From NCBI RefSeq assembly GCF_003584015.1, contig NZ_QXFM01000107.1:1-58624 (forward strand): a stretch of DNA of 58,624 bases. The letters are read 5' to 3'. Shown in pieces: positions 6,650-55,170 of this stretch; positions within the stretch are counted from its first letter, which is position 1, and each line of letters begins with the position of its first letter. The stretch comes from Aurantiacibacter xanthus (GTDB lineage: Bacteria; Pseudomonadota; Alphaproteobacteria; Sphingomonadales; Sphingomonadaceae). Made by a program: the position numbers and the translations under genes. The notes beneath the pieces are model-generated. The model was not told where the DNA came from and did no database searches. It worked only from the letters and a program-made list of their open reading frames with translations.

Positions 6650-6670
6650 TCCCGCTCTCTCCCGCAAGGC

Positions 6671-8772: not shown

Positions 8773-8832
8773 TCAGGGTCTCCAACCGAGAGAATGCCGT
8801 GCCGGACATTCCGGCTGACAATTTTTCTAGAT

Positions 8833-8843
8833 TGGTCTGACCT
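8833..8843. promoter_or_regulatory. Putative FCD/FadR-type operator (uxaC/manD)
   Basis: TGGTCTGACCT matches the TGGTCnGACCA core used by FadR-type repressors in ten of eleven positions. The same eleven bases, with a perfect last position, recur upstream of the TonB receptor at 16736-16746. It lies in the 113-bp divergent region between manD and uxaC, so one bound dimer could control both operons. Confidence 0.6.
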
Positions 8844-8885
8844 ATTCTGGCAAGGACTATCTCAATCAAACCGGAGAGAGGCCCA

Positions 8886-14487: not shown

Positions 14488-14502
14488 AGCGCGAAGGCCC
14501 CC

Positions 14503-16383
14503 TTATTGCGAGCCCGGCTCGCGCCACGGCGGCATCAGCGAGACATGCGGGTCGAACGTCCCGTCCTGCACCCGCGCCAGATAGCTCGCCGCCCGGCCGA
14601 GATACCCCGGATCGTCGACCAGCGCTTCCACCGCCGGCATAGCGGTCGAAGGATCGGCAACATAGGTCAGCGCATTAAGCGCCTGCAATCGGACCATTTC
14701 CGCAGAGCTGTCGGCCAGCAGGCGCGCCAATTCGGTCACTCCCGCTTCGGCCCGGCCAACATGGATCAGCCCTTCTGCCAGAACTACGCGGACTTGCGGG
14801 CTGCTCTCGGCTTCGAGTGCCGCTTGCATCGCCCCGGCGAAAGGGGCCGCACCCTCACCCCGGATCAGCAGGCCGGTCGCCGCCCAATAGCGGATCACCT
14901 CGTTATCGGATGACAGTTCAGCCGCCAGCGCATCGACCTCGTCAGCCGTGCCGCCTGCCGCACGGGCGGCAAGAGCCATGACCTGCGCCAGCGGATAGGC
15001 CCCCGGCTGGCGGCTCTCGACATAGCCTTCAAGCAGCGAGCCTTCGGGGATGAAGCCGTTGTCGTTGATCGCCAGCATGTGTTCGTCAAGCGCTTTGCGC
15101 ATGGCGTTGAGAACACCCGATCCCGAACCCGGATTGCCAGCCAGATTGTCGATCTCATCCGGATCGGCAGCCAGATCGTAGAATTCCTCGTATGGCTTGG
15201 GCTCGAAGAACCGGCTTTGCACCGGCGTCAGCTCACCTGCCAGATAGCGCGCATGCCAGTCCTGATAGCTGCGCAGCATCCACTCGAAGCCGACGACCTG
15301 CCCCCACGGGCGGTGCGGCATGTAATTGCGGATATAGCGATAGCGGCCATCGGTGACGGTGCGGATGAAGTCATAACGCTCGTCCATCCGGTTGCGCATC
15401 CCGAAGGCATAGACCTTCGGATCGGCGATGTTCTGGCCAAGAAAGGCCTTGCCCGGCATCTCTCGCGGCTGCTGCTCACCAACCAGTGAGAGCAACGTCG
15501 GCACGAAATCGATGAACGACACCGGCGCGGCGATCTCGCTGCCCGCAGGAACCGGCGCGAGATGCCGCCACTTCTCGGGCACATGCACCACCATCGCGAC
15601 GCGCTGCCCTTCCTCGTAGCAATACCGCTTCGAGCGCGGCATGCAGCCGCCGTTGTCGGAATAGTAGAAGACGATGGTGTCCTCTGCGAGGCCAGCCTCT
15701 TCCAGTTCGCGCAGACGGTCGCCGACGAATAGGTCCATCTTTTCCATCAGGTTGTAGTAGCTGGCGAAATCGCGCCGCACTTCCGGGCTGTCCGGGAGAT
15801 AGGGCGGGACTCGCACGTCCTCGGGCGAGACCTTACCCTCGGTCACTCCGAACAGCCGCGATTCATGCGTGATCTCGGTGTTGAACACCGCCATGAACGG
15901 CGCGCCTTCGGGCCGGTTGCGATAATGCGCATCCCTGCTGGATTCGTCCCAGATCGCATCGGGCTCGATCTTGCAGTTGTAGTCGGTCTTGGAGTTGTTG
16001 GTGCAGTAATAGCCCAGCGCGCGCAGATACTCCGGATAGGTGCGGATGAAATCGGGCAGCCTGGCCTCGGCGCGCATGTGATTGGCTGGCGCAGCGGATT
16101 CCGGATTGATGCCCGTCAGCAGGCAGAAGCGCGAGGGCGCGCAGACCGGCGCGTTCGAATAGACATTGCGATAGAGAATGCCGCCCCGCGCCATGGCATC
16201 GATGTTGGGCGTGTGGGCCAGCGGATCGCCATAGGCACCGATAAAGGGATTGTTGTCCTCACTGACGATCCACAGAATGTTCGGCCGCTCGCGGCTCATA
16301 GGCATACTGCGCGCTGTCGCGCATGCCGAGGTCACGCTTGCCGCGCCAATTGCCGTGATGGCCTGTCTGCGGTTCAGTTTCAT
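14503..16383 (-). CDS. Exported formylglycine-dependent sulfatase with C-terminal HEAT-like repeats
   Basis: A 626-aa type I sulfatase. Cys81 in the CAPSR motif is the residue converted to formylglycine by FGE; the metal site begins WIVSEDNNPFIGAYGD and includes YYSDNGGC. The N-terminus has a twin-arginine-like LNRRQAI and a hydrophobic stretch, consistent with export. After the catalytic part, about the last 130 residues are alanine-rich helical HEAT-type repeats (ELARLLADSSAEMVRLQALN), as in S1_8-like heparan or ulvan sulfatases. The frame is open another 73 codons upstream, but ATG 16383 with AAGGCAG upstream starts the signal peptide. It converges with dctM and is divergent from a TonB receptor. 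Substrate is inferred to be a sulfated uronate/rhamnose glycan. Confidence 0.87.
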   Translation of the reverse strand: MKLNRRQAITAIGAASVTSACATARSMPMSRERPNILWIVSEDNNPFIGAYGDPLAHTPNIDAMARGGILYRNVYSNAPVCAPSRFCLLTGINPESAAPANHMRAEARLPDFIRTYPEYLRALGYYCTNNSKTDYNCKIEPDAIWDESSRDAHYRNRPEGAPFMAVFNTEITHESRLFGVTEGKVSPEDVRVPPYLPDSPEVRRDFASYYNLMEKMDLFVGDRLRELEEAGLAEDTIVFYYSDNGGCMPRSKRYCYEEGQRVAMVVHVPEKWRHLAPVPAGSEIAAPVSFIDFVPTLLSLVGEQQPREMPGKAFLGQNIADPKVYAFGMRNRMDERYDFIRTVTDGRYRYIRNYMPHRPWGQVVGFEWMLRSYQDWHARYLAGELTPVQSRFFEPKPYEEFYDLAADPDEIDNLAGNPGSGSGVLNAMRKALDEHMLAINDNGFIPEGSLLEGYVESRQPGAYPLAQVMALAARAAGGTADEVDALAAELSSDNEVIRYWAATGLLIRGEGAAPFAGAMQAALEAESSPQVRVVLAEGLIHVGRAEAGVTELARLLADSSAEMVRLQALNALTYVADPSTAMPAVEALVDDPGYLGRAASYLARVQDGTFDPHVSLMPPWREPGSQ

Positions 16384-40509: not shown

Positions 40510-42396
40510 CTACAACTGCGCAAGCGCGACAATTTTCGCAGCCTCAGGCAATGTGGAAACTCCGAGTTTCTCCATAATATGCACGCGATGCGTCTCGATG
40601 GTTCTTGGGCTCACCCCCAGTTCGCGCGCCAGCTCTTTGTTGGTCGCCCCGTCGCTCAAGCCCAAGAGCACTTCGCGTTCACGGTCGCTCAAAATCTGCA
40701 TGGATTCCTTCGCCCGGCGTACCGTATCGCCTTCTCGTTGGTCTTTGCGGATCGCGCTCAAAGCGGAAGAAATAGCCTGATCCAGCCGTTCGAGAGGGTC
40801 GGTGGGCAACACGATATCCTTGATCCCCTGCTTCATTAGCTGGATCGCTGTCGAAGCATCCGCCACCTCGGAAATAACCAGCAATGGGAAGGCATAAAAT
40901 TCACCCCTCAGCGCGCTGGCGAGACGGGTTGCTTCAACTCCGCCACTCGAATCCAGCAGGATTACACAGCCAGGGACGAGGCCCCGGCACACCTTGAGGA
41001 ATGTATCTACTCCGTCATAGCTACGAACGTCGTAGCCGTTAGCCTGAAAGCGCCGGTTCAGAGTAACCCGGCTTTCCATTTCCCCATCAATCAGGTGGAT
41101 GGTCCTGTAGCCTCCGTCCGTGATGTCTTGCGCGATGCCTCCCACCAGCCGGATCGATCCATCGGAGTCGAATATTGGGAACTTCGTGCTGCGGATCCAT
41201 TTGATCGCACCATCGGTCCGTACGATCCGATATTGTTCGCGCAGGACTTCACCCGACAGAAGCCTTTCAAGGCCCGCATCCTGGTGCGCCCGATCATCGG
41301 GATGAATGGCGCAGCGCCACTGATACCAACTGAAGCCGGGCTCCGGTAACTCTCCCCAAATCGTCCGACAAGCCGGACTGGTATACTCGACGGTCTTCTT
41401 GCTTACATCGATCACCCAAATCGCGTCGGCGGAGTTTTCGGCAAAACTCCGGAACACCGCCGAAGCCTTGCTCAGAGCCGTGGAGGATTGGTGAAGATCG
41501 TCCACGTCGGTCGCAACCCCGTACCATTCGACAATTTCTCCGGTGCCGTCGCTTCGGGGTTCCGAGGTCGCTATGTGCCAACGATATTCACCGTTGCGCA
41601 TTCGGAGCCGGTGATAGTGTCGAAAGGTTGCCTCGTCCCGCTGTGATCGCGCCCAGGTGTCGCGCACCGATGGCAGGTCATCAGGATGAACTGACTGCCA
41701 GACATTGTCGCTCGAAAGCCCTTCGCGCAATTTGTTGTTTGCCCAAAGAATTTCCCCTTGTGGAGAGGCCCGCCAAAGCAAGCTTGGCACGATATCGCTG
41801 ACCTGGTGCAGGCCCTCCTCGCTCCCGTTTGAGCGGGCTTGCGCTTCGATCCGATCAGCTTGCGTAAGGAGCGGCACCAGGACACCGCTGATTGTCCCGG
41901 CGTCGTCATAGATCGGCGAAAGGGAGGCTGCCCAACAGCTATCGTGCGCTTCGCCTCCGGGCTGTAGTGGAACTCGCAAGGACTTCGCAAAAATCGGCTT
42001 CCCCTCCAAGGCTTCGCGAAACAGAGGCCTTAGCTGCTCCATCGATTCAGGGAGCACCGCGGCAAGAGGGCTGCCAAGAGTGTTTACCTTCCTGCGAAGT
42101 GCAGGAAGGCAAGCATCGTTGTAGAAGCAAAGCAGTTCCGCTCCCCAACATATCAAGGTCGGATGACCGGAATTGAGGATGAGATTGAGCGTAGTGCGCA
42201 AGGTCGATGGCCAGCCTTCCATCGGCCCGAGGCTGGTTGATGACCAGTCGCGTAAAGCGATCTCAGTCCCTACCTGCCCGCCACCCTGTAACCAGTTTCG
42301 GGTGCGCCCCAAACGCGTTCGATTGATGTCTTGCACAAGTGTCAATGAACCATTCCTGCTACGTCCCGGGCCCCACAGCCCAAGCAAAAAATCCAT
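40510..42396 (-). CDS. PAS-PAS-receiver-LuxR regulator
   Basis: A 628-aa soluble regulator joining sensing and output. An N-terminal PAS-like region precedes two PAS domains of the PAS_3 type (about 195-310: SDIVPSLLWRASPQGEILWA; about 320-435: ENSADAIWVIDVSKKTVEYT, ending GGIAQDIT). Then a receiver-like domain (about 440-550) keeps an Asp in CVILLDSSGG but has lost the usual acidic pair (HLIDGE) and the conserved Lys (DIVLPTDP). A C-terminal LuxR HTH is clear: LSDREREVLLGLSDG, PRTIETHRVHIMEKLGV. It is divergent from the adhesin operon and its likely regulator. The first ATG lacks a clear ribosome site, so the start is uncertain. Confidence 0.82.
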   Translation of the reverse strand: MDFLLGLWGPGRSRNGSLTLVQDINRTRLGRTRNWLQGGGQVGTEIALRDWSSTSLGPMEGWPSTLRTTLNLILNSGHPTLICWGAELLCFYNDACLPALRRKVNTLGSPLAAVLPESMEQLRPLFREALEGKPIFAKSLRVPLQPGGEAHDSCWAASLSPIYDDAGTISGVLVPLLTQADRIEAQARSNGSEEGLHQVSDIVPSLLWRASPQGEILWANNKLREGLSSDNVWQSVHPDDLPSVRDTWARSQRDEATFRHYHRLRMRNGEYRWHIATSEPRSDGTGEIVEWYGVATDVDDLHQSSTALSKASAVFRSFAENSADAIWVIDVSKKTVEYTSPACRTIWGELPEPGFSWYQWRCAIHPDDRAHQDAGLERLLSGEVLREQYRIVRTDGAIKWIRSTKFPIFDSDGSIRLVGGIAQDITDGGYRTIHLIDGEMESRVTLNRRFQANGYDVRSYDGVDTFLKVCRGLVPGCVILLDSSGGVEATRLASALRGEFYAFPLLVISEVADASTAIQLMKQGIKDIVLPTDPLERLDQAISSALSAIRKDQREGDTVRRAKESMQILSDREREVLLGLSDGATNKELARELGVSPRTIETHRVHIMEKLGVSTLPEAAKIVALAQL

Positions 42397-43039
42397 GATT
42401 TATTTTCTTTTACAGCCGCTTATTTTGATGCATCCTGTTGCCATCGCAATATATGATCAGCATTCATTCACCGGGTTTTCTCCCGTTCCATCAAATCGGA
42501 AGAGGCGATGATTTTTACCACCGAAACGGCACACGCTCGTTCTTCGTTTGCAATGATTGAGATGTCTTTCTCGCCCGTAGCAAGCGAGGCACCAGTATGC
42601 AGACCACCGAAATGTGCCGATTATCCAACATGGTAAATCCATAGCATGGTAACATTTCTTGTCAGAGCAAGTATCGCAACCTTGTGACTTCACTCATGTT
42701 CTATACCTGAAACCACTCCTAATAATTGGTTAATTCAATTAAGATTTTGGTACGGTAATTCCACGTGGAAACAACGGATGGCCACGTGGAAATACCGAGC
42801 GATGATAATCCTCATATCTGTCATCACGAAAGTGGAAAGAAGAGGATTGAAAGCGCGGTATTGTCGTAAGGCGGATGTTGTTTCGCTCACGCCCGGTATC
42901 CCTAGCATCCTCTTTGCACTGTTCTTGATGGCATACCCGATCCGCAGGGACGGTTCATTGAGGCTGGCGCCATCCACTGTCGCAGCTCGTGAGCAACGCT
43001 TCCGGCGGACCTCGGGTGACAACAGTGAGGGTGCTTGCG
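42397..43039. other. Long intergenic region before the adhesin operon
   Basis: These 643 bp are clearly more AT-rich than their surroundings, especially 42397-42760. Short frames exist on both strands, but none has a ribosome site or family-like sequence. The region should carry the divergent promoters of the PAS-LuxR gene and the adhesin operon and holds the tandem CCACGTGG sites at 42759-42792. No RNA gene was recognised. Confidence 0.5.
42759..42792. promoter_or_regulatory. Tandem CCACGTGGAAA operator-like sites
   Basis: TTCCACGTGGAA (42759-42770) is a perfect 12-bp palindrome, and CCACGTGGAAA recurs at 42782-42792. The two cores are 21 bp apart, two helical turns, so they lie on the same DNA face. 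They sit about 250 bp upstream of the adhesin start. This is the arrangement expected of a dimeric regulator; the PAS-LuxR protein is the nearest candidate. Confidence 0.55.
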
Positions 43040-46000
43040 ATGACCGATGTACTGCTGATTGCCAAGGATAGCGGAACGAGCGAAGAGCTTGTGGCCAATC
43101 TCGTCACACTTGACGAAGCGAAGATCGTCGTGCTCGGGCTTGATCGCGCCGACGTGGTCGGCTTCCGGCGCGAGGGTCAGAACCTTGTGGTGGAACTCGC
43201 CTCGGGCGAGATGGTGATTGTAGAGAACTTCTACGCCAACTGGCCAGACGGCGAGATGAGCGAACTGGTCCTGGAAGAAGAGGACGGCTCTCACTGGTGG
43301 CTCCGTGATGAAAGCGGCCTCGAATTCGCGCAATATTCCCCGCTCGATTCCCCCGAACAATTGCTGGCAGCAGACGGTGGCGGCGGAGCGGGTATCGGCA
43401 TGTTACCGGTCCTCGGCGGCGCCGGTCTTCTTGGCGGACTTGCAGCCGCTGCTGGTGGAGGCGGGTCGTCCGGCCAATCTCCCTCCTCGCCTCCACCACC
43501 TCCCCCTCCCCCTCCGCCGCCGCCGCCGCCGCCGGCTCCCGAAGCCTTTCTGGAAAACGACACCGGCTTTTCTGACGAAGATGGCATTACCAACGATCCA
43601 ACCGTGATCGTGACCGGACTGGCAGTCGGCGCAACCTACGAATACAGCCTCGACGGCGGAGCCACGTGGACCGCTGGCACAGGCGGCAGCTTCGAACTGC
43701 CTGAGGGGAGTTACAATGACGGCGATGTCCTGGTTCGCCAGGTCGTCGCAGGGGCCCCCGCGAGCACGCCGATATCGGTCGGCCCGGTTACAGTAGACCT
43801 GTCCGCACCACCTCCGCCCGGTGCCGTGCTCGAAAACGACACCGGCGCTTCATCGGACGACGGCGTGACGAGCGACGGCACGGTCCTGGTGCCTGATCTG
43901 GACCCGGCCAACACCTGGGAATTCAGCCTCGATGGCGGCGAAACCTGGACTGCGGGTACTGGCTCCAGCTTCGAGTTGCCCGATGGAACCTATTCCGACG
44001 GGGATGTGTTGGTCCGCCAAATCGACGCCGCCGGCAATACTAGCGAAATCTCCGCCCTCGGCGCGGTGACGATCACTGATGATACTGACGCAGACGCTGA
44101 TGCTGACGCAGACGCCGATGCTGACGCAGACGCCGATGCTGACGCAGACGCCGATGCTGACGCAGACGCTGACGCCGATGCTGACGCCGATGCTGACGCA
44201 GACGCTGACGCCGATGCTGACGCCGATGCCGATGCTGACGCTGACGCAGACGCCGATGCTGACGCAGACGCTGACGCTGACGCTGATGCTGACGCAGACG
44301 CCGATGCTGACGCAGATGCCGACGCTGATGCTGACGCTGACGCCGATGCCGATGCTGACGCTGACGCTGACGCTGACGCAGACGCTGACGCTGACGCTGA
44401 CGCCGATGCTGACGCTGACGCAGACGCTGACGCAGACGCCGATGCTGACGCTGACGCTGACGCCGATGCTGACGCCGATGCCGATGCTGACGCAGATGCA
44501 GACGCTGACGCTGATGCTGACGCAGACGCTGACGCTGACGCTGACGCTGACGCCGATGCTGACGCTGACGCTGACGCTGACGCTGACGCCGATGCTGACG
44601 CCGATGCCGATGCTGACGCAGACGCTGACGCCGATGCTGACGCAGACGCCGATGCTGACGCAGACGCTGACGCCGATGCTGACGCAGACGCCGATGCTGA
44701 CGCTGACGCTGACGCAGATGCTGACGCCGATGCTGACGCTGACGCTGACGCAGATGCTGATGCTGATGCTGACGCTGACGCTGACGCAGACGCAGACGCA
44801 GACGCAGATGCTGACGCCGATGCTGACGCCGATGCAGATGCCGATGCCGATGCCGACGCAGATGCTGACGCTGACGCAGATGCTGACGCTGACGCTGACG
44901 CAGATGCTGACGCTGACGCAGATGCTGACGCTGATGCTGACGCTGACGCAGATGCTGACGCTGATGCCGACGCAGACGCCGATGCCGATGCCGATGCCGA
45001 TGCCGATGCCGATGCCGACGCTGATGCTGACCTCGGGGCCGAGGACGATATCGCCAACTTGACCGTCGCGGTCGAACTTGAAGAAGTTACCTACTCCGCC
45101 AGCGAAACCGGCAGTGGGCTTGTCTCGGTCGGCGCGCTGGGCCTTGGCCTCGCGATCAACGAGAGCGTTCCGGTTCTCGCGTTCACTGTCGATGCCGGCC
45201 ACAGCACCGATGTCGATGCCACTCTTTCGACCTCGGGCCTCTTGGACATAAACCTTCTCGGCGACGTGCAACTGGTCCTGCAGCAATACGATGCCGGCAC
45301 CGGAGAATGGACGAATGTCACCAGTGTGGGCAACGGCGGCCTGCTCGACATCACGCTGCTTGGGACCGACGACGTAGCCGAAGTCTCGATCGATGGGCTT
45401 GGCGAAGGGCAATATCGCCTGGTCACAGCGAGCAACTCTCTGATCGATCTTGGAGCGCTCAGCTCAGTTACGCTTGCGGCCGACTTTACCGACCAGAGCT
45501 ACATCAGCACCGGCACGGCGAGCGGCGACGTCCATGACAACGACGCCCTGAGCACCACTACAGTGGTTTCGGTCGAAGGACCGAGCGGGACGACAACCGT
45601 GCCGAGCACGGGAACGGTCGCGGTATCGGGTCTTTACGGCACCCTGCTTATCGCCGCTGATGGCTCCTACACCTACACGGCAGACCCGAATGTTGTGATC
45701 AACACGCCGCAGCAGGAGGTGTTCACCGTTTCGCTCAGCGACGGATCGATAAGCGAAATGTCGACGCTGACCTTCAATCTGGCACCGGACGAAACGCCTC
45801 CCACCGCACCGGCTGCCGAAATCTCGGCTGATGGAACCACGGTGTCGGGTGGTCCAGGGGCCGCGGAACCCGGCTCGACGGTCACTGTATTCGGTCCGGG
45901 CGGTGTCCCGATCGGATCGGCGATCGCCGGAAGCGATGGCAGCTACGCCATCGTACTCGATGATCCGCAGGTGGACGGCGAGGCCCTGACGGTTACGGCG

Positions 46001-47338
46001 ACCGATAATCCCGGCAACAGTTCGGGGGGTACGCCAGTTGATGCGCCGGACCTTTTCGCTCCGCCGACACCCACCGCCGCCATCTCGACCGACGGCACAA
46101 CCGTCACTGGTCTGGCCGAAGCAGGATCGACTGTGACCGTGCTTGGCGCGGACGGTCTAACCGTGCTTGGCACTGCCACGGCAGATGCAGGCGGCGCTTA
46201 CTCGATCACCCTGTCCACATCGCAGATCGATGGTGAAACGATCACCGTGACGGCAGGGGATGCCGGAGGAACCTCGCTGCCAACGGCCCTCACCGCACCC
46301 GATCTCTACTTCGCGATCGACAACGAGGTGACGCTGGCTCTCGACGTGACGCCAACCATCACCAGCAACCCGTCAGCGACGGAAACTGCCGGTACGGTAC
46401 TCAGTCTGTCGGCGCTCTCTGGTGTGATCGATATCGCGCTCTTGCAGAGCAACAGCGTCATGGCGTTCGACGTTCCCGAATATGCCACACGCGATGTCAC
46501 ACTCGATGGCAGTGGCTCAGCGCTCGCAGCTGTCAGTCTGAGCGATGCAGATTTCGATCTGATCGTCTTTGCCGAGCGCGACGGTGTGGTGACCGAATTC
46601 GCACGCGTCACCAACTGGTTGGACTATGATCCCGGCATCCTCGGCATTTTGCTGCCAAGCTGGGATGCCACGGGGCCAGTACCTCTCGAACTGGAGGGCG
46701 GAGCAACCTATTATGTTCTGCTGGCAAATTCCCAGGCCGTGCTGAACCTGAACCTGCTCGGTTCAGTCACGGTTTCCACTTCCGACGACTTGACGACCGA
46801 CTTCGGCGATCCGCAAAGCGCCAGCGGTAGCGTCAGCGGCAATGTCATCACCGATGACGGAGCCGGCGGGACGGACGTGGTCCAGCCGGGCACCAACGTT
46901 GCCGAGGTTGAAGGTATCACCATAGCCGGAGCGAATACGGAGGTCGCCGGCACCTATGGCACGCTCTCAATCGATCCTGATGGCAGCTATACCTACACGA
47001 TCGATCCCGCCTTCGATGGCCAGTATGGTCAGAGCGACACGTTCAGCTACACATTGGAGGCGCCTGACGGTTCAACCGAGACGGCCCATCTGATCGTAAC
47101 GCTCGAACTGGCAGGGCAACCAGCGGTCATGGCCTTTGCCGAAACCGGGCTGCTGGAGAGCGATGGGCTGACCTTCGCGCTCAGCACTGAACCCGACGAC
47201 AGCGGATCCGGTGGCGGCGAAGAAGGATCGGGCAGCTCCACTGCATCCACCGATCCGACCGATGCGCCGCCTGTCGTCGAATACGATACGACCTCGCCCC
47301 TTGGCGGACTGGATGATCCGCTCGAACAGCAGGTCTGA
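43040..47338 (+). CDS. BapA-like type I secreted adhesin with a poly(Asp-Ala) tract
   Basis: A 1432-aa surface protein without a Sec signal, as expected of type I secretion. Domains: BapA-prefix-like N-terminus (about 1-90, [28 protein letters not shown]); a Gly/Ala hydrophobic stretch and a 15-residue proline run (to about 180); two Ig-like BapA repeats ([20 protein letters not shown] and [20 protein letters not shown]); a pure Asp-Ala tract of 315 residues (about 350-664); then BapA-like, Ig-like and VCBS-like beta domains ([36 protein letters not shown]) and an acidic serine-rich C-terminus carrying the presumed secretion signal. ATG 43040 is chosen because it starts the prefix domain. tolC, ABC and HlyD genes follow. 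Likely role is adhesion or biofilm. Confidence 0.85.
44087..45031 (+). repeat. 945-bp low-complexity tract encoding about 157 Asp-Ala dipeptides
   Basis: A period-6 GAY-GCN repeat, in frame with the adhesin and without interruption at protein level. Codons alternate irregularly between GAC/GAT and GCA/GCT/GCC, and I see no GCG. The strict dipeptide with varied codons points to protein-level selection. All six frames are open or nearly open here, an effect of the repeat; only the Asp-Ala frame belongs to a gene. Confidence 0.95.
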
Positions 47339-47372
47339 CTTGGAAGCCGGTCAGGGCCCTGTGATAACAACC

Positions 47373-48686
47373 ATGGGCCGTGCCCGCGGCGCGCTGGCTA
47401 TTGCTTGCGCGGGCACGGCCCTAATGGGCATGCAACCGGCGTCGGCGCAGGATTCCTCCTGGACCGATGCGATTCTCGATCTGCCCACCGCGGCGCGCGA
47501 AGCGGTGGCCTGGCACCCCACCGTGGCGCGGGCCGCCGACCAGCTCAATGCGCAGGAGCAACGGATCGGCGAGGTGCGTTCCGCATTGTATCCCCAGGTC
47601 ACGGGCGGGGTTGGACTCGGTTACGACTCCACTCTGCGCAATGACTGGCGTCCGAGCGCAAATATCGGCGTCAGTCAGCGGCTGCTGGATTTCGGAAAAC
47701 TCGACAGCCTGACCGACATCGAGCGCGCCGGCGTGCGTGTGGCGCGCGCGCAGGTGCTGCTTTCCGTCGATACCTTGCTTCACGACACGGCGTTCAGCGT
47801 GATCGAGATCCTGCGCGGCGAAATGCTGCACGCCGCTGCGAGCGAGCAGGTCGAGCGGGTGCGAGCCATCGGCAACCTGGTTGATGCCCGCGCCGCACGC
47901 GGGGCGGCCACACGGTCTGACGCGTTGCAGACTCAATCGCGCGTCGATGCCGCGCAATCCACCATCCAGCAGATCAAGGCCGAACTGCTGCGCTGGCAGA
48001 CCAACCTTGGCTTTCTGCTCGGCCGCGAGGTGGCGCCACCCGTGTCCTCCACCTTGCCCGAAAGCTTCGACAATGCATGTGGTGCAAACCTCGAAGCCCT
48101 CGATGCACCGCCCCTGATGCAGGAAGCACGCGCACGGCTCGATCAGGCCGAAGCCCGGTTGCGCAATGAGAGGGTTGGCAGGATGCCAACCATAAGTGTC
48201 GGCGGCAGCGGTCGAAGCGACTTGCTCGATCCGCTAGGTGAAGACCGGGCCCGCTACGACTTTGGCATCAGGGTGGAATCGTCGCTCTTCGACGGCGGTG
48301 CCTATCGTTGACGCGTGCGCGGGGCGCAGATGGCGCAGTCGGCGGCAGCCGCCGATTTTGCCGCGGCCCGGCTCGAAACCGAACGCACTTTCGCTGAAGC
48401 ACGGGCTCAGGAACGCGCACTGGAGGATCGCGCTGTCACGCTTGCGCGCCGCTATTCGACAATGGAACGAACGCGCGAGCTATACCGCCTGCAATATCTC
48501 GAACTGGGCACACGTACGCTGGTCGACCTGCTCAACGCCGATCAGGAATTAAGCCAGATCCGCTTCGACGAGATCAACGCCCGCTACGACCTCGCCCGGC
48601 TCGCGGTGGTCTGCCTCCATTCGGGCGGACGGCTTCGCGAAGCGCTCGGTCTGACCGGGGAAGATCTCCGTGGGGTTCGACTATGA
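47373..48686 (+). pseudogene. TolC-family outer-membrane channel of the T1SS, interrupted by one in-frame TGA
   Basis: Encodes a LapE/TolC-type channel: signal peptide ending PASAQ|DSS, then coiled-coil helices (AAREAVAWHPTVARAADQLN, RIGEVRSALYPQVTGGVGLG) and the second half (ELYRLQYLELGTRTLVDLLNADQEL). Residues up to SSLFDGGAYR (48308) and from RVRGAQMAQ onward (48312) are in the same frame, separated only by TGA at 48309-48311. TolC relatives commonly read GGARRARVR-like here, so a CGA-to-TGA change is the simplest cause. The stop is followed by C, the leakiest context for TGA, so some full-length protein may be made; an assembly error is also possible. The end overlaps the ABC gene (ATGA). 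Confidence 0.8.
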
Positions 48687-50884
48687 CGGCCTTTCAACCG
48701 ATCCAGATTCCGGCGCCTCCGGCCAAGCCAACCTTGCAAGAGAACGAGCGATGGCTTGAGGCGCTGCGTTTCCTTGCCCGGCACCATGGCCTTACCCTGT
48801 CCGAACAATCCGCGCGGCTGGCCGGGCAATGGGACGACAGCCACACATTCGAAGATCGGGTTGCCACCATGGCCCGCAGGCTTGGTCTTCGCGTGACCTT
48901 CAGCGATCCTGCCAGCTTGCGACTGAGCAGCCTGCACCTGCCTCTGCTGGCCGAAATGCGGGACGGTTCACTTGCTTTGGTCAGTGCGATTTCCGCAGGC
49001 GAAGTCGTCGTGGCGCCAGCCGATTGCCCCGCCCTGCCCCATCGCATGTTGCTCGAAGAATTCGGCAGCAAGGCCCTGCGCTATATTCAGGCACGGCCCG
49101 CCGGAGGCCTGAGCGATGAGCGCGTGGATCTCTATGTTAAGCCCTATGACGAAGGCTGGCTGCGGCGCATTCTGACTGCCGACCTGCCCCGCTATGGCCA
49201 TGTGCTGCTCGCCAGCTTCATCTGCAACGTGCTCGCACTCGCCGGCATCGTTTTCTCGATGCAGGTCTACGACCGCGTCGTGCCCGCCGAATCCATGCCC
49301 ACACTGATGGTGCTCTTCCTCGGCGTGGTGCTGGCCATAGCGCTCGATTTCATCCTGCGCCGTATGCGCATGACCATCGTCGACGTACTCGGCAAGCGAG
49401 CCGACCTGCGGATGTCGGATCTGGTCTTCGGGCATGCCCTGCGCGTGAAGGCCAGCGCGCGCCCGCAGTCGACCGGTTCATTCATCGCCCAGCTGCGCGA
49501 TCTGGAGCAGGTCCGCGAGGTGCTCGGATCCACCACGCTCGCAGCGGTGGCCGACATCCCGTTCTTCATCCTGTTCGCAGCGGTCATGTTCTATCTGGTC
49601 GGCGCATTGGCGCTGGTGCCGCTGGGCGCATTGGTGCTGCTGGTGGTTCCGGGGCTGCTCGCCCAGCGGCGGATGCGCGAGCATGCGACGGCCGCAATGC
49701 GCGAAGCCTCACTGCGCAACGCCATGCTGGTCGAAGCCGTGCAGGGGCTTGAAGATATCAAGACATTGCAGGCCGAGGAGCGGTTCCAGCGCCAATGGCG
49801 TCACTACACCGAGGTGGCGGGCGAAGCGCAGCTCAGGCTGCGCGGGCTTACCAACGGGCTGACCGTGTGGACACACAACGTTCAATCGGGTGTCTATGCC
49901 ACGATCATTTTCGTTGGTGCGCCGATGGTCATCGCCGGCGACATCACCACGGGCGTGCTGGTGGGAGCCTCGGTGCTGGGGTCGCGCATGCTGGCCCCGA
50001 TGGCGCATCTCACACAGGTGTTCAGCCGCCTCCAGCAAGCGCGGATCGGGGCCCGCAGCCTCGATGCGATTATGCAATTGCCGGTCGATCATCCCGAGGG
50101 CGAAAGCCGCATCGCGCTGCCCAGTGCCTCGGGCGAGCTGGCGCTGCGCCATACCCGGTTCGGCTATGAGCCCAGCCGGCCCATTCTGGCGATCGATGAC
50201 CTCACCATCGCGCCGGGCGAACGAATAGCACTGTTGGGCCGTAACGGCGCGGGTAAGTCCACGCTGCTCCAAGGCCTGTCGGGTCTGCTCGATCCGCTCG
50301 AAGGGCAGATCCTTCTCGACGGGCTCAACCTGGCGCAGATCGACCCTGCGGATTCGCGGCGCGAGGTGGGCTTGCTTGGCGCAAACTCGCGGCTGTTCCA
50401 TGGCACGATCCGGGAAAACCTAACGCTGGGCGCACCGCTCGCAAGCGACGAGGCAATCATGCGCGCACTTGCCGCGGTAGGAGCTGACCGGTTCGTGAGC
50501 GGCCTGCAAAGCGGCCTCGACTATCGCCTGCGCGAAGGGGGAGGAGGTCTGTCAGCCGGACAGGCGCAGGCGCTGCTGCTGGCCCGCCTGCTGCTGCGGG
50601 AGCCTACCGTCCTCCTGCTCGACGAGCCGAGCGCGGCCATGGACGAGTTGACCGAACGCCACTTTGTCGAGCAGCTGGGTGCCTGGAGCCGTGGCCGAAC
50701 GCTGGTGATCGCTACACACCGCACCCGCCTGCTCGATGTGGTCGACCGGGTGATCGTGCTCGACAAGGGCCGCATCGCCTCCGACCAGCCGCGCGCGCGC
50801 TTTCTCGCCACCCAGGCCCGCGCCGCCGCGATACAGGCGCAAACCAGTTCAGAAGCGCGGGCCCAAGCGGGAGGCACACGATGA
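48683..50884 (+). CDS. Type I secretion ABC transporter (LapB-like)
   Basis: A 733-aa inner-membrane exporter. The N-terminal 130 residues form a C39-peptidase-like domain without the catalytic Cys (LRFLARHHGLTLSEQSARLA), so it binds rather than cleaves the substrate. Six helices follow (about 160-440; FSMQVYDRVVPAESMPTL). The ATPase domain has Walker A LLGRNGAGKSTLL, signature LSAGQAQALLLARLLL and Walker B TVLLLDEPSAAMDE. It overlaps hlyD-like by four bases. It belongs to the family that exports giant adhesins and should export the adjacent poly(Asp-Ala) protein. Confidence 0.92.
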   Translation: MTAFQPIQIPAPPAKPTLQENERWLEALRFLARHHGLTLSEQSARLAGQWDDSHTFEDRVATMARRLGLRVTFSDPASLRLSSLHLPLLAEMRDGSLALVSAISAGEVVVAPADCPALPHRMLLEEFGSKALRYIQARPAGGLSDERVDLYVKPYDEGWLRRILTADLPRYGHVLLASFICNVLALAGIVFSMQVYDRVVPAESMPTLMVLFLGVVLAIALDFILRRMRMTIVDVLGKRADLRMSDLVFGHALRVKASARPQSTGSFIAQLRDLEQVREVLGSTTLAAVADIPFFILFAAVMFYLVGALALVPLGALVLLVVPGLLAQRRMREHATAAMREASLRNAMLVEAVQGLEDIKTLQAEERFQRQWRHYTEVAGEAQLRLRGLTNGLTVWTHNVQSGVYATIIFVGAPMVIAGDITTGVLVGASVLGSRMLAPMAHLTQVFSRLQQARIGARSLDAIMQLPVDHPEGESRIALPSASGELALRHTRFGYEPSRPILAIDDLTIAPGERIALLGRNGAGKSTLLQGLSGLLDPLEGQILLDGLNLAQIDPADSRREVGLLGANSRLFHGTIRENLTLGAPLASDEAIMRALAAVGADRFVSGLQSGLDYRLREGGGGLSAGQAQALLLARLLLREPTVLLLDEPSAAMDELTERHFVEQLGAWSRGRTLVIATHRTRLLDVVDRVIVLDKGRIASDQPRARFLATQARAAAIQAQTSSEARAQAGGTR

Positions 50885-52071
50885 GCACCGCTCCGGCAGA
50901 TCTCGGCCCCAATTTCGAGAACCTGTTCGACGAGCGTCGCCTCAGGCGCAGCACACGCGTGGTATCGGTGGCGCTGGCCGGGCTGCTGGCCTTTCTGGCC
51001 TGGGCCTATCTCGCCACGCTCGACGAGGTCGCCAGCGGCTCGGGCCGTGTCATTCCCACCAGCCGCGAGCAAACGATCCAGTCGCTTGAGGGCGGCATCC
51101 TGTCCAAACTGATGGTGCAGCAGGATGATCTGGTCTCGCCGGGCCAGGTCGTGGCCCAGCTCGATCCGACCCGCTCTGGCGCCGAGGTCGAGGAAAGCGA
51201 GGCCCGTTACACCGCGGTGCAGGCGAAGGTTGCCCGGCTCGAAGCTGAAGTGGCGCAACTGCCCATCACCTTCCCCGATAGCCTCGACGGCTTCGCTTCG
51301 TTGCGTGCCACCGAACAGCGCCTTTACGAAACTCGGCGGCGCAGCGTGGACCAGTCGATAGCGCTGGTGGATCGGTCTCTGGCGCTGATCACCCAGGAGC
51401 TGAACATTGCCCGGTCACTGGTCGAGGTCGGGGCGGCCAGCAATGTCGAGGTGATCCGCCTGCGCCGCGAACAAGCCGAGCTGGAACTGCGCAAGGCGGA
51501 TATTCGCTCCGAATACATGGTGCAGGCACGCGAGGAGCTGAGCCAGGCACGAGAAGAAATGGAATCGCTCTCGCCGATCGTACGGGGGCGCAACTTTTCG
51601 CTCGAAACGCTGACCCTGCGCGCGCCCGTGCGGGGCATCGTGAAGAGCGTCGATGTGTCGACCATCGGCGGGGTGGTGCCACCGGGCGGGCTGTTGATGA
51701 CCATCACCCCGGTCGATGACCAATTGCTGATCGAGGCGCGAATGTCGCCCCGCGATATCGCCTTCATCCACCCCGGCCAGCGGGCCACTGTCAAGGTGAC
51801 GGCCTACGACAGCGCCATTTACGGCTCGCTCGAAGGTGACGTCACTTCGATCTCGCCCGATACCATTCAGGACCAGGCCGATCCGTCGATCTATTATTAC
51901 CGCGTTTTCGTGCGCACCAGCGCCGACGCTCTCACCGACCGGGCCGGTGCTCCGCTCCGCATCGTGCCGGGCATGATCGCCACCGTCGATATCCACACCG
52001 GCAGCAAGACAGTGCTGCAATATCTGATGAAGCCGCTTAACCGGGCCCGCGAGGCCCTGCGCGAGCGATAG
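50881..52071 (+). CDS. Type I secretion membrane-fusion protein (HlyD/LapC-like)
   Basis: A 396-aa periplasmic adaptor. A single N-terminal helix (about 25-45), the lipoyl-like segment SREQTIQSLEGGILSKLMVQ, a long coiled coil (about 100-230, rich in Glu, Arg and Leu), then the second lipoyl half LRAPVRGIVKSVDVSTIGG and the C-terminal beta part (GQRATVKVTAYDSAIYGSLE) ending TVLQYLMKPLNRAREALRER, typical of HlyD. It links the ABC exporter to the TolC-type channel. The Mur-ligase fusion gene starts 21 bp downstream. Confidence 0.93.
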   Translation: MSTAPADLGPNFENLFDERRLRRSTRVVSVALAGLLAFLAWAYLATLDEVASGSGRVIPTSREQTIQSLEGGILSKLMVQQDDLVSPGQVVAQLDPTRSGAEVEESEARYTAVQAKVARLEAEVAQLPITFPDSLDGFASLRATEQRLYETRRRSVDQSIALVDRSLALITQELNIARSLVEVGAASNVEVIRLRREQAELELRKADIRSEYMVQAREELSQAREEMESLSPIVRGRNFSLETLTLRAPVRGIVKSVDVSTIGGVVPPGGLLMTITPVDDQLLIEARMSPRDIAFIHPGQRATVKVTAYDSAIYGSLEGDVTSISPDTIQDQADPSIYYYRVFVRTSADALTDRAGAPLRIVPGMIATVDIHTGSKTVLQYLMKPLNRAREALRER

Positions 52072-52092
52072 AACCTTGCGGGGTGAAATAGC

Positions 52093-55000
52093 ATGGACAC
52101 GGCAAGGCTCATTGCCCGAATGAACGATGCGGCTGCCGCGGCAGCGCGCGCCCTGCCCGGATCGGATCGCTTCGCGCTGTTTTTGTCGGCAAGTGATGGC
52201 TCCGCGCGCGCGGTGACTGTCAATGCCACGGCCGATAGCTTCGCGAAGGCTTGGTCCGCTTGTGCCGAACAGCTCGCCAAACGCCAGCCTGAGGCACGCT
52301 GGTTGCGCCTCGACTGGGTGGAAGACCTGTCCCTCACCACCGTCGCCGGCCTCAAGCAACAAGTCGAAGGGACCAAGCGCAACTATTTTCGCCACGGCAT
52401 AGCGTTCGATGCCGACCTTGAGACAGCCTTTCTCGAAACTGAGTTGAACGCGAACGCCATGCTCTATGGGGGCAACAAGCTCGATCATGGCGTGCTCAAC
52501 GAGCGCAACTTCACACGCTATGCCCGGCAGCGTCATCCCGGTGCCCAGCTCGACCTGCGCGACGATGCGCCCCTGTGGCTGTTTAGCACCGGCGGGCTGT
52601 TTCTTGCCGCCGATGATCCCGCCCCCATCCCGCTCCACGGCACCGGTCGCAATGCAGGGCGTCGCCGGGTTGATCGGCTTGGGATTGCCGATCTCGACAG
52701 CCTGATCACCGCAGGCTCAACCTATCTCGCGCGGCAGGTGGATGCGGACGGGCGCTTTGCCTATGGCTGGCACCCTTGTTTCGACCGCCCGATCCTCACC
52801 TACAACAGCCTGCGCCACGCCAGCACGCTGCATTCGATGCTTGAGGCCTACGAGGTGCGGCCCTCCGCTCCTCTGGCAGCGGCGATCGAGCGTGCGACCG
52901 AATACCTCGCCACCCGGCTCGTGCGATCTTCCACGGTTCACGAGCAGCAGCTGGCCTTCGTGGTAGAGGACAATGGCGAGATCAAGCTCGGGGCGAGCGG
53001 CGTGTGTCTGCTCGCGCTGGTGAAACATGCCGAACTGTTCAGGACAGACCGTTATCGTGCCCTGCTCGACGCGCTGGGCAATGGCATCCTTCACATGCAG
53101 GACCGCGAGAGCGGCGGCTTTGCCCATGTCCTCAGCTACCCCGCGCTGGAGCTGAAGGAGAAATTCCGCATCATCTACTACGATGGCGAGGCCGCCTTCG
53201 GCCTGATGCGGCTTTACGGCCTGACCGGAGAAGCGCGCTGGCTGGCGGCAGTAGAGCGAGCTTTCTCGTACTTCCTCCAGCATCGCCACTGGCGCGCGCA
53301 CGATCACTGGCTGGGCTATGCCGCCAGCGAGCTGATAAAGTACCGGCCCAATGCAGCCTATTTCCGCTTCGGCCTGCGCAACGTGCGCTCGCACCTGGGT
53401 TTCGTGCTTGATCGCATCACGACCTTTCCCACTCTGCTGGAACTGATGATCTCGTCCGCACAACTGATTGCACAATTGCGCGAGGCTCCAGCTGCGCGGC
53501 ATTTGCTGCGCGAGATCGATCTGCCCACATTCTATGAAGCTTTGCACTTTCGCGCGCACTATCTGCTCAATGGTCATTTCTGGCCCGAGCTGGCGATGTT
53601 CTACCGGCGGCCGGATCGGATCGAAGGCAGTTTTTTCATCCGTCACCACGCCTTCCGCGTGCGCATCGACGATGTCGAGCACTACCTCTCAGGCCTGATC
53701 GGCTATCGCCGCTTCCTTCAGGAAAGCGGCGAGGCATATCCCGCCGATCCGGCCCGGCTGGAATGGCGTCCGCCGCAAGAGAGCGGCTGGAACGCGCGCA
53801 ACTTGCCCCTCGCTACGGGCGGTGTCTGGCAAAATCCGCCTCCGCTCAGATGGAGTGCCACGGGCGTCTGCATTCATCGCGGCGGCTTCACGCCGGGCCG
53901 GATAGCCGCCGTGCGGCTACGCAAGGGCGAAAAGGGCCTCACCCCTGACGATATTGCGAAAGAACCGGTCAAACCCGCTGCCGTACTGGTCAGCAATCCG
54001 GCGGGGATTGAGGGCACCGTTCCGAAGCTCTGGGTCGAAAATCCGCAGACTGCGGTGCTTGATATGGCACGCTATGCCCGTGCCCGTTTCGGTGGACGGG
54101 TGATCGGCGTTACCGGGAGCGCAGGGAAGACCACCACCGTCGCCATGATGGCCCATGCCCTGCGCTCTTATGGCCTGGTGGGCCAGACCAGCAGCAATGC
54201 CAACCTGCCGCTGGGAGTCGCGTGGAACCTTGCCTCGATGCGCTGGGACGATCCCCATATTGTGATCGAGATGGGCGTCGGTCGCATGGAACAAAGTGCC
54301 GCCCTCGCGAGGCCAGATGTGGCGGTTTTCACCACCATCGCACCGGCGCACCTCGAATATCACAATACCCTTGAGGGCGTTGCCTTACGAAAAAGCCGGA
54401 TGTTTCTCGGAATGAAGCCCGGCGCGCTGGCGGTGCTCAACCGCGAGATGCCGGAATGGGAAACAGTCGCCAAGGCCGCCCTGCGACGAAAGCTCAGGCT
54501 GTGCAACTATGGCCGTTCGGCAGAATGCCCATACCGCCTGCTGGAATACAACCAGGCATCTGGCGAAGTGACCGCAGACATTCGCGGCAAGAAAGTCCGC
54601 TATACTCTGGGCGCGCCTGGCGAGCATATGGCGCTGAATTCACTGGCAGTTATCGCTGCGACTTGCGAAATGGGGCACGATCCCGAGCTGGCACTTTTCC
54701 AGCTTGCAAGTTTTCAACCAGTCGCTGGTCGGGGTGCGCGCAAGAAGCTGCTTCTGGAGGGAAAATCCATCGTCGCAATCGACGACAGCTATAACGCCAA
54801 CCCCGCCTCAATGAAGGCGGCCCTGCATCAACTCGGTGGTGAACAGACGGACGGACGCAAAATCGCCGTTTTGGGAGAGATGGCAGAACTCGGTGAAGAC
54901 ACCATTCAGTTCCACACCGAGCTTGCCACTGTCATTCGGGCGGTGGACATAGATCGCGTCTATGTCATGGGAAAAAGCTACGCTGCCTTTTGCCGCGATA

Positions 55001-55170
55001 TGCCGGGACACTTGCATGCCGGTCACACAGATTCCCATGAAGAAATGGCCGCTTGGCTCAGAAGAGATATCCGTGCGGGTGATTGCATCCTTTTCAAAGG
55101 ATCCGCCGTTGCGAAGATGGGCAGTGTATTGAAGCGGCTGGGCGCTATTGAATCGGATTCCCAAGCATAG
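52093..55170 (+). CDS. Large fusion: alpha-helical toroid-like domain plus MurF-like amide ligase
   Basis: A 1025-aa cytoplasmic protein without signal or membrane segments. Residues about 1-195 are an unrecognised N-terminal domain (WLRLDWVEDLSLTTVAGLK, KRNYFRHGIAFDADLETAF). About 200-560 form an alpha/alpha-toroid-like region of paired helices (YNSLRHASTLHSMLEAYEV, IIYYDGEAAFGLMRLYGLTG) resembling six-hairpin enzymes. About 645-1025 form a Mur ligase: P-loop GVTGSAGKTTT near residue 672, EMGVGRMEQSA, a possible carbamoylated Lys near GVALRKSRMF, and the MurF hallmark IDDSYNANPASMKAAL near 896. Mur ligases join a carboxylate to an amino group with ATP. Its place 21 bp behind the T1SS adaptor suggests it acts on the adhesin, perhaps on Asp side chains; this is inference. 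It is not the housekeeping MurF, judging by the fusion and the setting. Confidence 0.78.
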   Translation: MDTARLIARMNDAAAAAARALPGSDRFALFLSASDGSARAVTVNATADSFAKAWSACAEQLAKRQPEARWLRLDWVEDLSLTTVAGLKQQVEGTKRNYFRHGIAFDADLETAFLETELNANAMLYGGNKLDHGVLNERNFTRYARQRHPGAQLDLRDDAPLWLFSTGGLFLAADDPAPIPLHGTGRNAGRRRVDRLGIADLDSLITAGSTYLARQVDADGRFAYGWHPCFDRPILTYNSLRHASTLHSMLEAYEVRPSAPLAAAIERATEYLATRLVRSSTVHEQQLAFVVEDNGEIKLGASGVCLLALVKHAELFRTDRYRALLDALGNGILHMQDRESGGFAHVLSYPALELKEKFRIIYYDGEAAFGLMRLYGLTGEARWLAAVERAFSYFLQHRHWRAHDHWLGYAASELIKYRPNAAYFRFGLRNVRSHLGFVLDRITTFPTLLELMISSAQLIAQLREAPAARHLLREIDLPTFYEALHFRAHYLLNGHFWPELAMFYRRPDRIEGSFFIRHHAFRVRIDDVEHYLSGLIGYRRFLQESGEAYPADPARLEWRPPQESGWNARNLPLATGGVWQNPPPLRWSATGVCIHRGGFTPGRIAAVRLRKGEKGLTPDDIAKEPVKPAAVLVSNPAGIEGTVPKLWVENPQTAVLDMARYARARFGGRVIGVTGSAGKTTTVAMMAHALRSYGLVGQTSSNANLPLGVAWNLASMRWDDPHIVIEMGVGRMEQSAALARPDVAVFTTIAPAHLEYHNTLEGVALRKSRMFLGMKPGALAVLNREMPEWETVAKAALRRKLRLCNYGRSAECPYRLLEYNQASGEVTADIRGKKVRYTLGAPGEHMALNSLAVIAATCEMGHDPELALFQLASFQPVAGRGARKKLLLEGKSIVAIDDSYNANPASMKAALHQLGGEQTDGRKIAVLGEMAELGEDTIQFHTELATVIRAVDIDRVYVMGKSYAAFCRDMPGHLHAGHTDSHEEMAAWLRRDIRAGDCILFKGSAVAKMGSVLKRLGAIESDSQA

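Follow-up and report, generated by a model that had tools for sequence, protein, structure and literature searches.

A toroid module fused to a MurF-like ligase and encoded with an (Asp-Ala)n adhesin and its exporter: a candidate system for modifying acidic tracts

The operon and its adhesin

The window, a 58,624-nucleotide stretch of Aurantiacibacter xanthus DNA, carries five same-strand genes in the order adhesin, TolC-type channel, ABC exporter, HlyD adaptor and toroid-MurF ligase (Table 1). The adhesin stop (47338) and the TolC ATG (47373) are separated by 34 bp, the ABC and HlyD genes each overlap the preceding gene by 4 bp and 21 bp lie between the HlyD and ligase genes. Order and spacing are those claimed in the first-pass annotation, which described an operon with gaps of 34 bp or less. 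Type I secretion of a BapA-type adhesin is indicated by the joint presence of BapA_N, a BapA/Bap/LapF C-terminal region (NF045619), an LssB-type ABC protein and HlyD. The channel belongs to the TolC type as first annotated (OEP match), but its gene is not intact: an in-frame TGA, overlooked earlier, breaks the frame. This interruption in the present strain counts against the explanation favored below.

Table 1. Features of the adhesin operon and of the proteins it encodes (window coordinates)
Feature	Coordinates	Strand	Evidence
BapA-type adhesin, predicted type I substrate, 1432 aa	43040..47338	+	BapA_N 91.8 bits, Big_6, NF045619 231.9 bits; ORF 42989-47338, length counted from ATG at 43040
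BapA_N prefix domain of adhesin	43040..43387	+	PF22783 97.3 bits
(Asp-Ala)n tract, 316 residues (158 Asp, 157 Ala, 1 Thr)	44081..45028	+	residues 348-663 of adhesin
TolC-type outer-membrane channel gene, through in-frame TGA	47373..48311	+	OEP and TIGR01844 matches; TGA 48309-48311
Remainder of TolC frame past stop	48312..48686	+	OEP 22.5 bits in ORF 48315-48686
Type I secretion ABC permease/ATPase, LssB type	48683..50884	+	TIGR03375 717.2 bits, cut-off 693.1
HlyD-type periplasmic adaptor	50881..52071	+	TIGR01843 306 bits, cut-off 208.65
Toroid-MurF fusion protein, 1025 aa	52093..55170	+	profile matches; model pLDDT 91.7, pTM 0.83
N-terminal alpha/beta domain, residues 1-193	52093..52671	+	AlphaFold model of residues 1-560, pLDDT 92.8
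(alpha/alpha)6 toroid, AGE (cellobiose/N-acylglucosamine 2-epimerase) fold, residues 194-549	52672..53739	+	
MurF-like ligase region, residues 556-1017	53758..55143	+	Mur_ligase_M 112.4 bits, Mur_ligase_C 64.7 bits

The residue count of the tract agrees with the about 157 Asp-Ala dipeptides first reported, and Ser is absent. Its DNA is a mixture of six Asp-Ala codon pairs and one Asp-Thr pair, which rules out a simple DNA repeat as its origin. Chance is also ruled out by an identical search of 458,931 bp of toroid-less loci, which returned no tract. Biofilm adhesins are known to carry long Asp-Ala and Asp-Ser tracts. We know of no account of their processing besides the glycosylation of staphylococcal Ser-Asp repeats.

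A two-part protein with an undescribed front module

The MurF-like end of the 1025-residue protein, recognized in the first-pass annotation, is confirmed, but a module of about 550 residues ahead of it had been missed. This module, an alpha/beta domain followed by a toroid, is undescribed: residues 1-560 match no Pfam family (E 0.01) and no NCBIfam family above cut-off. The toroid has the (alpha/alpha)6 fold of the AGE superfamily, an assignment made by a fold comparison that spanned residues 194-549 only and not residues 1-193. The module is strongly conserved, with 106 of 560 positions invariant over 54 sequences, among them 7 His, 14 Arg and 8 Glu. A toroid of this fold is typical of sugar-acting enzymes, which counts against a view centered on the ligase.

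The ligase region comprises the middle and C-terminal Mur ligase domains with a P-loop (GSAGKT). The ATP motif and the YNANP motif are retained; across 48 fusion proteins the P-loop, Lys767 and Asp897/Tyr900/Asn901 do not vary. Domain 1 differs from that of MurF. Its 80% consensus in 27 MurF sequences, DSR...GDLF.AL.G...DGH, contains the motifs that bind UDP-MurNAc; neither the window protein nor the consensus built from 15 toroid-Mur proteins shows it. By this comparison the nucleotide-sugar acceptor motifs of MurF are lost. The curated MurF cut-offs are also missed (TIGR01143, 265.6 of 288.6 bits; NF010693, 267.1 of 544). Together with fusion to the toroid and linkage to an adhesin, these features set the protein apart from MurF; the lost motifs and missed cut-offs rule out a plain MurF paralogue. 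A separate MurF-like gene lies elsewhere in the genome, among other Mur genes.

The likeness to cyanophycin synthetase (CphA) that had first been drawn is weak by sequence, and membership of that family is ruled out (TIGR02068, 29.7 bits against a cut-off of 850, compared with 265.6 bits to MurF TIGR01143). CphA assembles the backbone itself, by means of an ATP-grasp domain, and its Mur-type ligase adds units to Asp side chains. The window system would share the Mur-type ligase and the site of addition, whereas its Asp chain is ribosomal. Profile searches of the 1025-residue protein returned no ATP-grasp domain and no glycosyltransferase, and PGA_cap is absent. The last point separates it from CapBCA poly-gamma-glutamate synthesis, in which a Mur-like ligase and a PGA_cap protein make a non-ribosomal polymer, although Mur+PGA_cap fusions do occur among its relatives. 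In tubulin polyglutamylation, eukaryotic ATP-grasp enzymes (TTLL) join amino acids to acidic side chains in the tail of a ribosomally made protein; unlike the window system, it involves neither a Mur ligase nor export.

Toroids, Asp-X tracts and exchangeable partners

Homologues were chosen on sequence alone (108 toroid ORFs, 99 non-redundant at 95%). A tract was defined as at least 8 Asp-X pairs and was considered in reach when located, in any frame, within 12.5 kb of the toroid midpoint or in an extension piece; the constancy of Asp is thus partly due to construction, since the pattern demanded it. Such a tract is in reach at 68 of the 99 non-redundant loci, the host genes having been hand-checked in part, and a T1SS ABC gene is present at 59. 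The outcome named beforehand as adverse, homologues occurring mostly without T1SS or Asp-rich adhesins, is therefore not observed. Flanks are short at 22 of the 31 tract-negative loci; the tract is truly missing at seven well-flanked ones (L080, L083, L109, L118, L166, L168, L211), which include both ATP-grasp fusions. Seven additional loci examined later include two with a tract and five in which none was seen. Many toroid loci are related to one another. The genome contig search drew on 80 of 144 matches, and from 54 plasmid records six neighborhoods were examined.

In the family sample, BapA_N and a tract are found in 11 of 11 toroid genomes, while the tract occurs in none of 15 toroid-less BapA_N genomes (Fisher p 1.3e-7, or 2.8e-6 when restricted to the 11 of 15 control frames reaching a stop), values that are only nominal because the genomes are related. 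Among the controls, one of the 15 BapA_N hits (G099) lies under the family cut-off and 3 of the 11 stop-reaching frames are shorter than 600 aa. From a search that matched 17 genomes the strong matches were used, the four partial ones (E >1e-5) in G499, G594 and G793 being set aside. A class-level sample of 200 genomes contains no toroid other than that of the window genome, and its two other BapA_N genomes above cut-off both lack the tract, a count that leaves out seven weaker BapA_N hits. Toroids also adjoin Asp-X tracts in Staphylococcus and Enterococcus, so that the co-occurrence spans two phyla. In S. simulans an SdrD-like adhesin gene is followed by a toroid and a separate Mur ligase; in Enterococcus gilvus the toroid follows the adhesin. 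The pairing is thus seen with different adhesins and in both Gram types. From the 68 of 99 loci and the contrast of 11/11 with 0/15 genomes, the link between the 1025-residue protein and the tract is well supported by comparison.

The partners of the toroid vary: Mur, Mur+PGA_cap, Mur+Peptidase_S11, glycosyltransferase, YheCD ATP-grasp, methyltransferase and beta-hydroxylase-like domains are found, the MurF-like ligase being the commonest. A Mur domain is neither fused nor nearby at 16 of the 68 tract loci, six of which have another enzyme domain and ten no nameable partner, so the ligase is not obligatory. In this comparison the toroid module is the constant part and the ligase one of several exchangeable partners. 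The earlier interpretation linked protein and tract, and that part holds up; its choice of the ligase as core enzyme overlooked the constant module, and its cyanophycin analogy is weak by sequence.

Two toroids (L084, L213) are fused to glycosyltransferases whose best matches are SdgA/SdgB (131.5-139.4 bits, far under the 800-bit cut-offs), beside Ser-Asp tracts with 97-99% Ser. The order of G624 was represented by 247 genomes; four of them have a toroid, joined to a glycosyltransferase only in G624, and the others have Mur types (G880, G925) or Mur (G755). The association of glycosyltransferase with Ser is therefore based on two loci. A restriction of Mur to Ala tracts is ruled out by three Mur fusions adjoining Ser tracts (L082, L139, L141). 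Tracts accompany only 4 of 8 Mur+PGA_cap groups. A DD-peptidase domain is fused at five non-redundant loci, and its SxxK, SxN and KTG motifs are kept by 12 of the 15 proteins that are 1250-1320 aa long. The beta-hydroxylase-like partner is weakly defined: PF05118 matches 9 of 14 proteins at E <=0.05 (best E 4.7e-4; the two scores given are both under cut-off), and a profile match to solved beta-hydroxylases has E 4.6e-4. Six of the 14 also show a weak GH88 match, which, like the fold of the toroid, counts against the ligase-centered explanation.

At five Burkholderiales loci (L120, L123, L133, L153, L122) the toroid-Mur gene is followed by a hydrolase gene and a D-Ala-D-Ala ligase gene, that of L122 being cut off at the contig end. 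The two ligases tested score 393 and 382 bits to NF002378. Four of these genomes have two over-cut-off copies and the fifth has one plus the contig-end fragment; the window genome has one. Among the loci examined, the gene occurs only at these Burkholderiales loci and not in the window.

Predicted modification of the tract before export

We consider it probable, at roughly 60%, that the 1025-residue protein modifies the (Asp-Ala)n tract by amidating Asp side chains before export. The toroid module would hold the tract of the adhesin encoded in its own operon while the MurF-like domain joins amino-acid units to the Asp carboxylates through ATP-driven amide bonds in the cytoplasm; the type I exporter would then send the modified adhesin out. 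The substrate, the site and the timing are inferred, as is the chemistry. Up to 158 negative charges might be capped in this way and the stalk protected or stiffened. D-Ala-D-Ala is the amine substrate of MurF. It is the leading candidate for the added unit because of the five Burkholderiales ligase loci and the five DD-peptidase fusions, although its identity is the least certain step and our preference for it is tentative. The separate MurF-like gene of the genome speaks for the proposed modification; against it count the tract loci that have no Mur domain, the well-flanked toroid loci that have no tract, the Mur fusions adjoining Ser tracts, the Mur+PGA_cap groups in which no tract is seen and the restriction of the D-Ala-D-Ala ligase gene to the five Burkholderiales loci.

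The toroid might instead itself act on the tract or on attached sugars, as an epimerase- or glycosidase-like enzyme, the MurF-like domain adding an optional second modification. Its fold, shared with sugar epimerases and GH76, the ten tract loci without nameable partner, a number of invariant positions that is high for a passive scaffold and the resemblance of one PGA_cap partner domain to the peptide epimerase MslH (64 bits, cut-off 700) all point this way. We know, however, of no AGE-fold toroid acting on peptides, and repeated fusion to varied modifying domains better suits a tract-holding role; we regard this alternative as improbable. It seems equally improbable that the MurF-like domain makes a product of its own, be it a small molecule, a variant of peptidoglycan or a polymer, that aids anchoring or export of the adhesin, with the tract a mere neighbor. 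Such a role would agree with the cell-wall context of MurF and DD-peptidase, the D-Ala-D-Ala ligase neighbors, the PGA_cap+Mur combination recalling poly-gamma-glutamate synthesis and the toroid-Mur loci with no tract in reach, but not with the loss of the MurF acceptor motifs, the recurrence of the tract-toroid pair with different adhesins and in bacteria of either Gram type, or the fusion of the same toroid to SdgA/B-like glycosyltransferases beside Ser-Asp tracts. Least credible is a role without catalysis, in which the protein, its ligase decayed, acts as a chaperone to maintain the solubility or export readiness of the acidic tract. Toroid-only loci exist and handling a tract requires no chemistry; nevertheless, the invariant P-loop, Lys767 and Asp897-Asn901 motif and the preserved DD-peptidase motifs are not those of decayed enzymes.

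Since relatives of the toroid adjoin Asp tracts in many unrelated bacteria, amidation of the tract would likely be one form of an undescribed surface-protein decoration. In the openly licensed literature, no paper among the matches listed describes the action of a toroid or a Mur ligase on an adhesin tract, and we know of no other case in which a Mur ligase would have a ribosomal protein as its substrate. If true, the proposal describes a modular, widespread modification system for low-complexity acidic tracts and would give a function to a large protein group whose members currently bear the names MurF, glutamate ligase or Mur ligase (1,486 matches with E no higher than 1e-10, the best 120 of them listed). 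It makes directly testable the standing question of why biofilm adhesins bear hundreds of Asp dipeptides, and might provide an enzyme with which decorated polypeptides could be made. In a bolder and rather unlikely extension, (Asp-X)n stalks would mimic peptidoglycan stem peptides in at least two phyla. They would be held by the toroid and decorated on Asp by exchangeable enzymes, the MurF branch adding D-Ala-D-Ala pendants; these would shield the stalk and might allow the adhesin to be joined to the wall or to its neighbors by cell-wall transpeptidases.

Two studied systems come close. SdgA and SdgB add GlcNAc to Ser of staphylococcal Ser-Asp repeat adhesins and are encoded beside the dipeptide-repeat surface adhesins whose tract they modify (PMC3794999). 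The L084 and L213 fusions resemble this arrangement, while the window system differs in its Mur ligase, Ser-free tract and toroid module, and has no glycosyltransferase match. We know of no description of SdgA/B that includes a toroid. Among Asp-Ala adhesins, the one system that has been studied is BapABCD of Paracoccus denitrificans, which shares with the window a long Asp-Ala tract on a type I-exported adhesin and in whose description the word ligase does not occur (PMC5588039). Its tract has 891 repeats and the adhesin is required for biofilm, is calcium-stimulated and migrates in gels above its true mass (PMC5588039).

Toroid loci and their Asp-X tracts

The toroid, the (alpha/alpha)6 AGE-fold module that accompanies the MurF-like region in the 1025-aa protein, is encoded by an accessory gene. 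With residues 1-560 as query, it was matched in 11 of the 397 genomes of the family and in 17 of 398 genomes of the phylum (3 of the 17 only weakly and partially), and a class sample of 200 genomes contained no toroid apart from the window's own. Matches at E 1e-10 or better numbered 1,486 in a protein search (the best 120 of these are listed).

Neighbourhoods were collected from sampled genomes, from 80 of 144 contig matches and from six plasmids, and several were lengthened. The 108 toroid ORFs correspond to 99 non-redundant loci at 95% identity. Tracts were sought in all frames as at least 8 consecutive Asp-X pairs (X = A, S, T, G, E, N, V or I), a pattern that has Asp built in and that other repeat types escape; it occurs in reach at 68 of the 99 loci, X being mainly Ala (62), Ser (5) or Gly (1). 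The proposal of the first-pass annotation, that the ligase may decorate tract Asp side chains, thus holds up against the test it set, whether homologues occur with Asp-rich repeats; what it lacked is the toroid as the core.

Among the 31 tract-less loci, 22 have short flanks (under 9 kb to one side or under 7 kb to the other). On our reading, two of the nine better-flanked ones (L101 and L165) stop at the end of a contig inside the adhesin operon, so that seven genuine exceptions are left. Lengthening L071, L075, L092, L093 (two copies within one genome with L092), L100, L107, L111, L115, L117, L130 and L156 yielded a new or longer tract in 11 of 11, the longest reaching 1,864 residues. No tract was gained by lengthening L101, L166, L168, L080, L083, L087 and the G824 loci, and a separate look at 14 tract-less pieces found no acid-rich stretches. 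Seven further toroid loci outside the census include two with a tract.

BapA_N was found in 26 of the 397 family genomes (25 over the cut-off), including all 11 that carry the toroid. These 11 all have a tract; it was found in none of the 15 others in the pieces fetched, where 11 of the 15 control frames reach a stop in view and three of those 11 are under 600 aa. The Fisher p value is 1.3e-7, or 2.8e-6 using only the 11 frames reaching a stop, both nominal as genomes share ancestry. The same pattern gave no tract in 458,931 bp of fetched toroid-free DNA.

A T1SS ABC gene lies near 59 of the 99 toroid loci and 51 of the 68 tract loci. Staphylococcus simulans (L212) encodes an SdrD-like adhesin whose Asp-Ala/Ser tract has 1,204 residues; after it come a toroid of 538 aa that stands alone and, as a further protein, a Mur ligase of 686 aa. 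In Enterococcus gilvus (L215) the toroid follows an adhesin with a 50-residue tract. The fused form adjoins a BapA with a 318-residue tract in Sulfitobacter (L214). S. capitis (L216) has a truncated Mur gene, and no gene is annotated over its tract stretch. The link is explained neither by type I secretion nor by a single adhesin family; the common factor found is the Asp-X tract.

The operon of the window and recurrent neighbours

Sequence checks confirmed the adhesin, exporter and 1025-aa protein genes as first described. The adhesin runs from a BapA prefix through the tract and Ig-like domains to a BapA/Bap/LapF C-terminal region, and its charged residues include 259 Asp and 64 Glu but just 2 Lys and 10 Arg. 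GCG encodes none of the 157 tract Ala and 31 of the 115 Ala elsewhere in the gene, an absence which suggests that the tract grew by unit duplication. The ABC, HlyD and 1025-aa reading frames are intact. The TGA in the TolC gene may be a real mutation or an assembly or sequencing error; with TolC interrupted, the exporter of this strain may be impaired or served by another TolC. The divergent PAS/LuxR-type gene is a possible regulator of the operon. The HE-rich neighbour, whose L213 copy has no Pfam match, is possibly an adhesin-processing protease.

Features of the window and of toroid loci (L-numbers) from other genomes
Feature	Locus	Position	Observation
BapA-type adhesin	window	43040-47338	1432 aa
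Asp-X tract	window	44081-45028	316 residues (158 Asp, 157 Ala, 1 Thr)
In-frame TGA	window	48309-48311	interrupts operon TolC gene
Toroid-Mur protein	window	52093-55170	1025 aa
Divergent gene upstream of adhesin operon	window	40510-42396 (-)	two PAS, degenerate receiver, LuxR-type HTH
Adhesin and toroid	L211 (Acinetobacter baumannii)	5535-13434	toroid directly 3' of T1SS-type adhesin without Asp-X tract by the pattern; exception
Stand-alone toroid	L211	11779-13434	annotated poly(glycerol-phosphate) or poly alpha-glucosyltransferase
Stand-alone toroid	L212	11932-13548	annotated as in L211
Two stand-alone toroids in a row	L160	8291-13028	then separate MurF-like ligase; type I exporter adjoins
Condensation-domain proteins	L214 (Sulfitobacter)	8857-11739	two, immediately 5' of toroid-Mur gene
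~320-aa neighbour (cluster, 10 loci)	L213	15119-16075	HE-rich protease-like motif
~320-aa neighbour	L079	6491-7477	same cluster
~350-aa neighbour (cluster, 15 loci)	L117	13827-14891	alpha/beta hydrolase-like, weak Pfam matches
~350-aa neighbour	L133	7707-8768	same cluster
PGA_cap partner	L154	9890-14731	residues 760-836 score 64 bits, against a cut-off of 700, with the model for MslH (lasso-peptide Trp epimerase)
Toroid + PGA_cap + two tandem Mur ligases	L126 (Brucella rhizosphaerae)	9956-16171	2072-aa frame

Partner domains and the proposed modification

The 99 toroid groups include fusions to Mur alone (49), Mur and PGA_cap (8), Mur and a Peptidase_S11 DD-peptidase (5) or a glycosyltransferase (2); the remaining 35 have neither a Mur nor a glycosyltransferase fusion, six of them with a Mur ORF nearby. 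Some of these 35 carry other fused partners: at L080 and L083, neither of which has a tract in reach, a YheCD ATP-grasp; at L143 a methyltransferase; and at L107, L125 and L135 a domain resembling beta-hydroxylases. Exchanges can be recent, as suggested by the 88% identity between the toroids of a Mur-fused protein (P0132) and a hydroxylase-type protein. The glycosyltransferases best match SdgB (139.4) and SdgA (131.5) at L213, and SdgA (138.3) and SdgB (134.2) at L084 (cut-offs 800), the demonstrated enzymes of Ser-Asp tract glycosylation (PMC3794999). The tracts at both loci are 97-99% Ser; a partner resembling a known tract modifier matches its tract here. If this reasoning is carried over to the most frequent partner, the Mur domain, then it too most likely modifies tracts.

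A set of 27 MurF, made up of the window genome's own and 26 others from relatives of the order, was compared with 15 toroid-Mur proteins. At 80% consensus, the latter have lost the domain 1 motif DSR...GDLF.AL.G...DGH of the acceptor side and retain the P-loop, the conserved Lys and D..YNANP.SM of the ATP and amine side. The acceptor side has thus been altered, and the other still looks MurF-like. Key residues of the Mur domain are invariant in 48 fusion proteins. We give a probability of 0.6 to the reading in which the ligase would join units to tract Asp residues through amide bonds.

Four Burkholderiales loci carry a toroid-Mur gene, a hydrolase gene and a complete D-Ala-D-Ala ligase gene in that order, and in a fifth the last is cut by the contig end; the other loci searched have none. 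All four genomes possess a second D-Ala-D-Ala ligase copy elsewhere; in the fifth, the fragment is accompanied by a single complete copy. Of 15 proteins that are 1250-1320 aa long, 12 retain SxxK, SxN and KTG in the S11 partner. These neighbours and conserved motifs make D-Ala-D-Ala the leading, still tentative, candidate for the unit added.

The whole protein fits the defining features of none of the known families tested; for its working principle there are analogues only, namely SdgA/B, tubulin glutamylation and cyanophycin. Among the openly licensed papers listed in literature searches, none describes a toroid/Mur ligase system for adhesin tracts. The BapA of Paracoccus denitrificans, with 891 Asp-Ala repeats, is type I-exported, required for calcium-stimulated biofilm and of apparent gel mass above its true mass (PMC5588039), and Acinetobacter BAP-like proteins have up to 701 Ser-Asp repeats (PMC4647330); the passages on these tracts name no toroid or ligase for them.

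A family search with the stand-alone toroids of L212 and L211 gave no match, and their glucosyltransferase naming therefore probably spread from toroid-glycosyltransferase fusions. The MslH match of the L154 partner hints at epimerisation as a further tract change.
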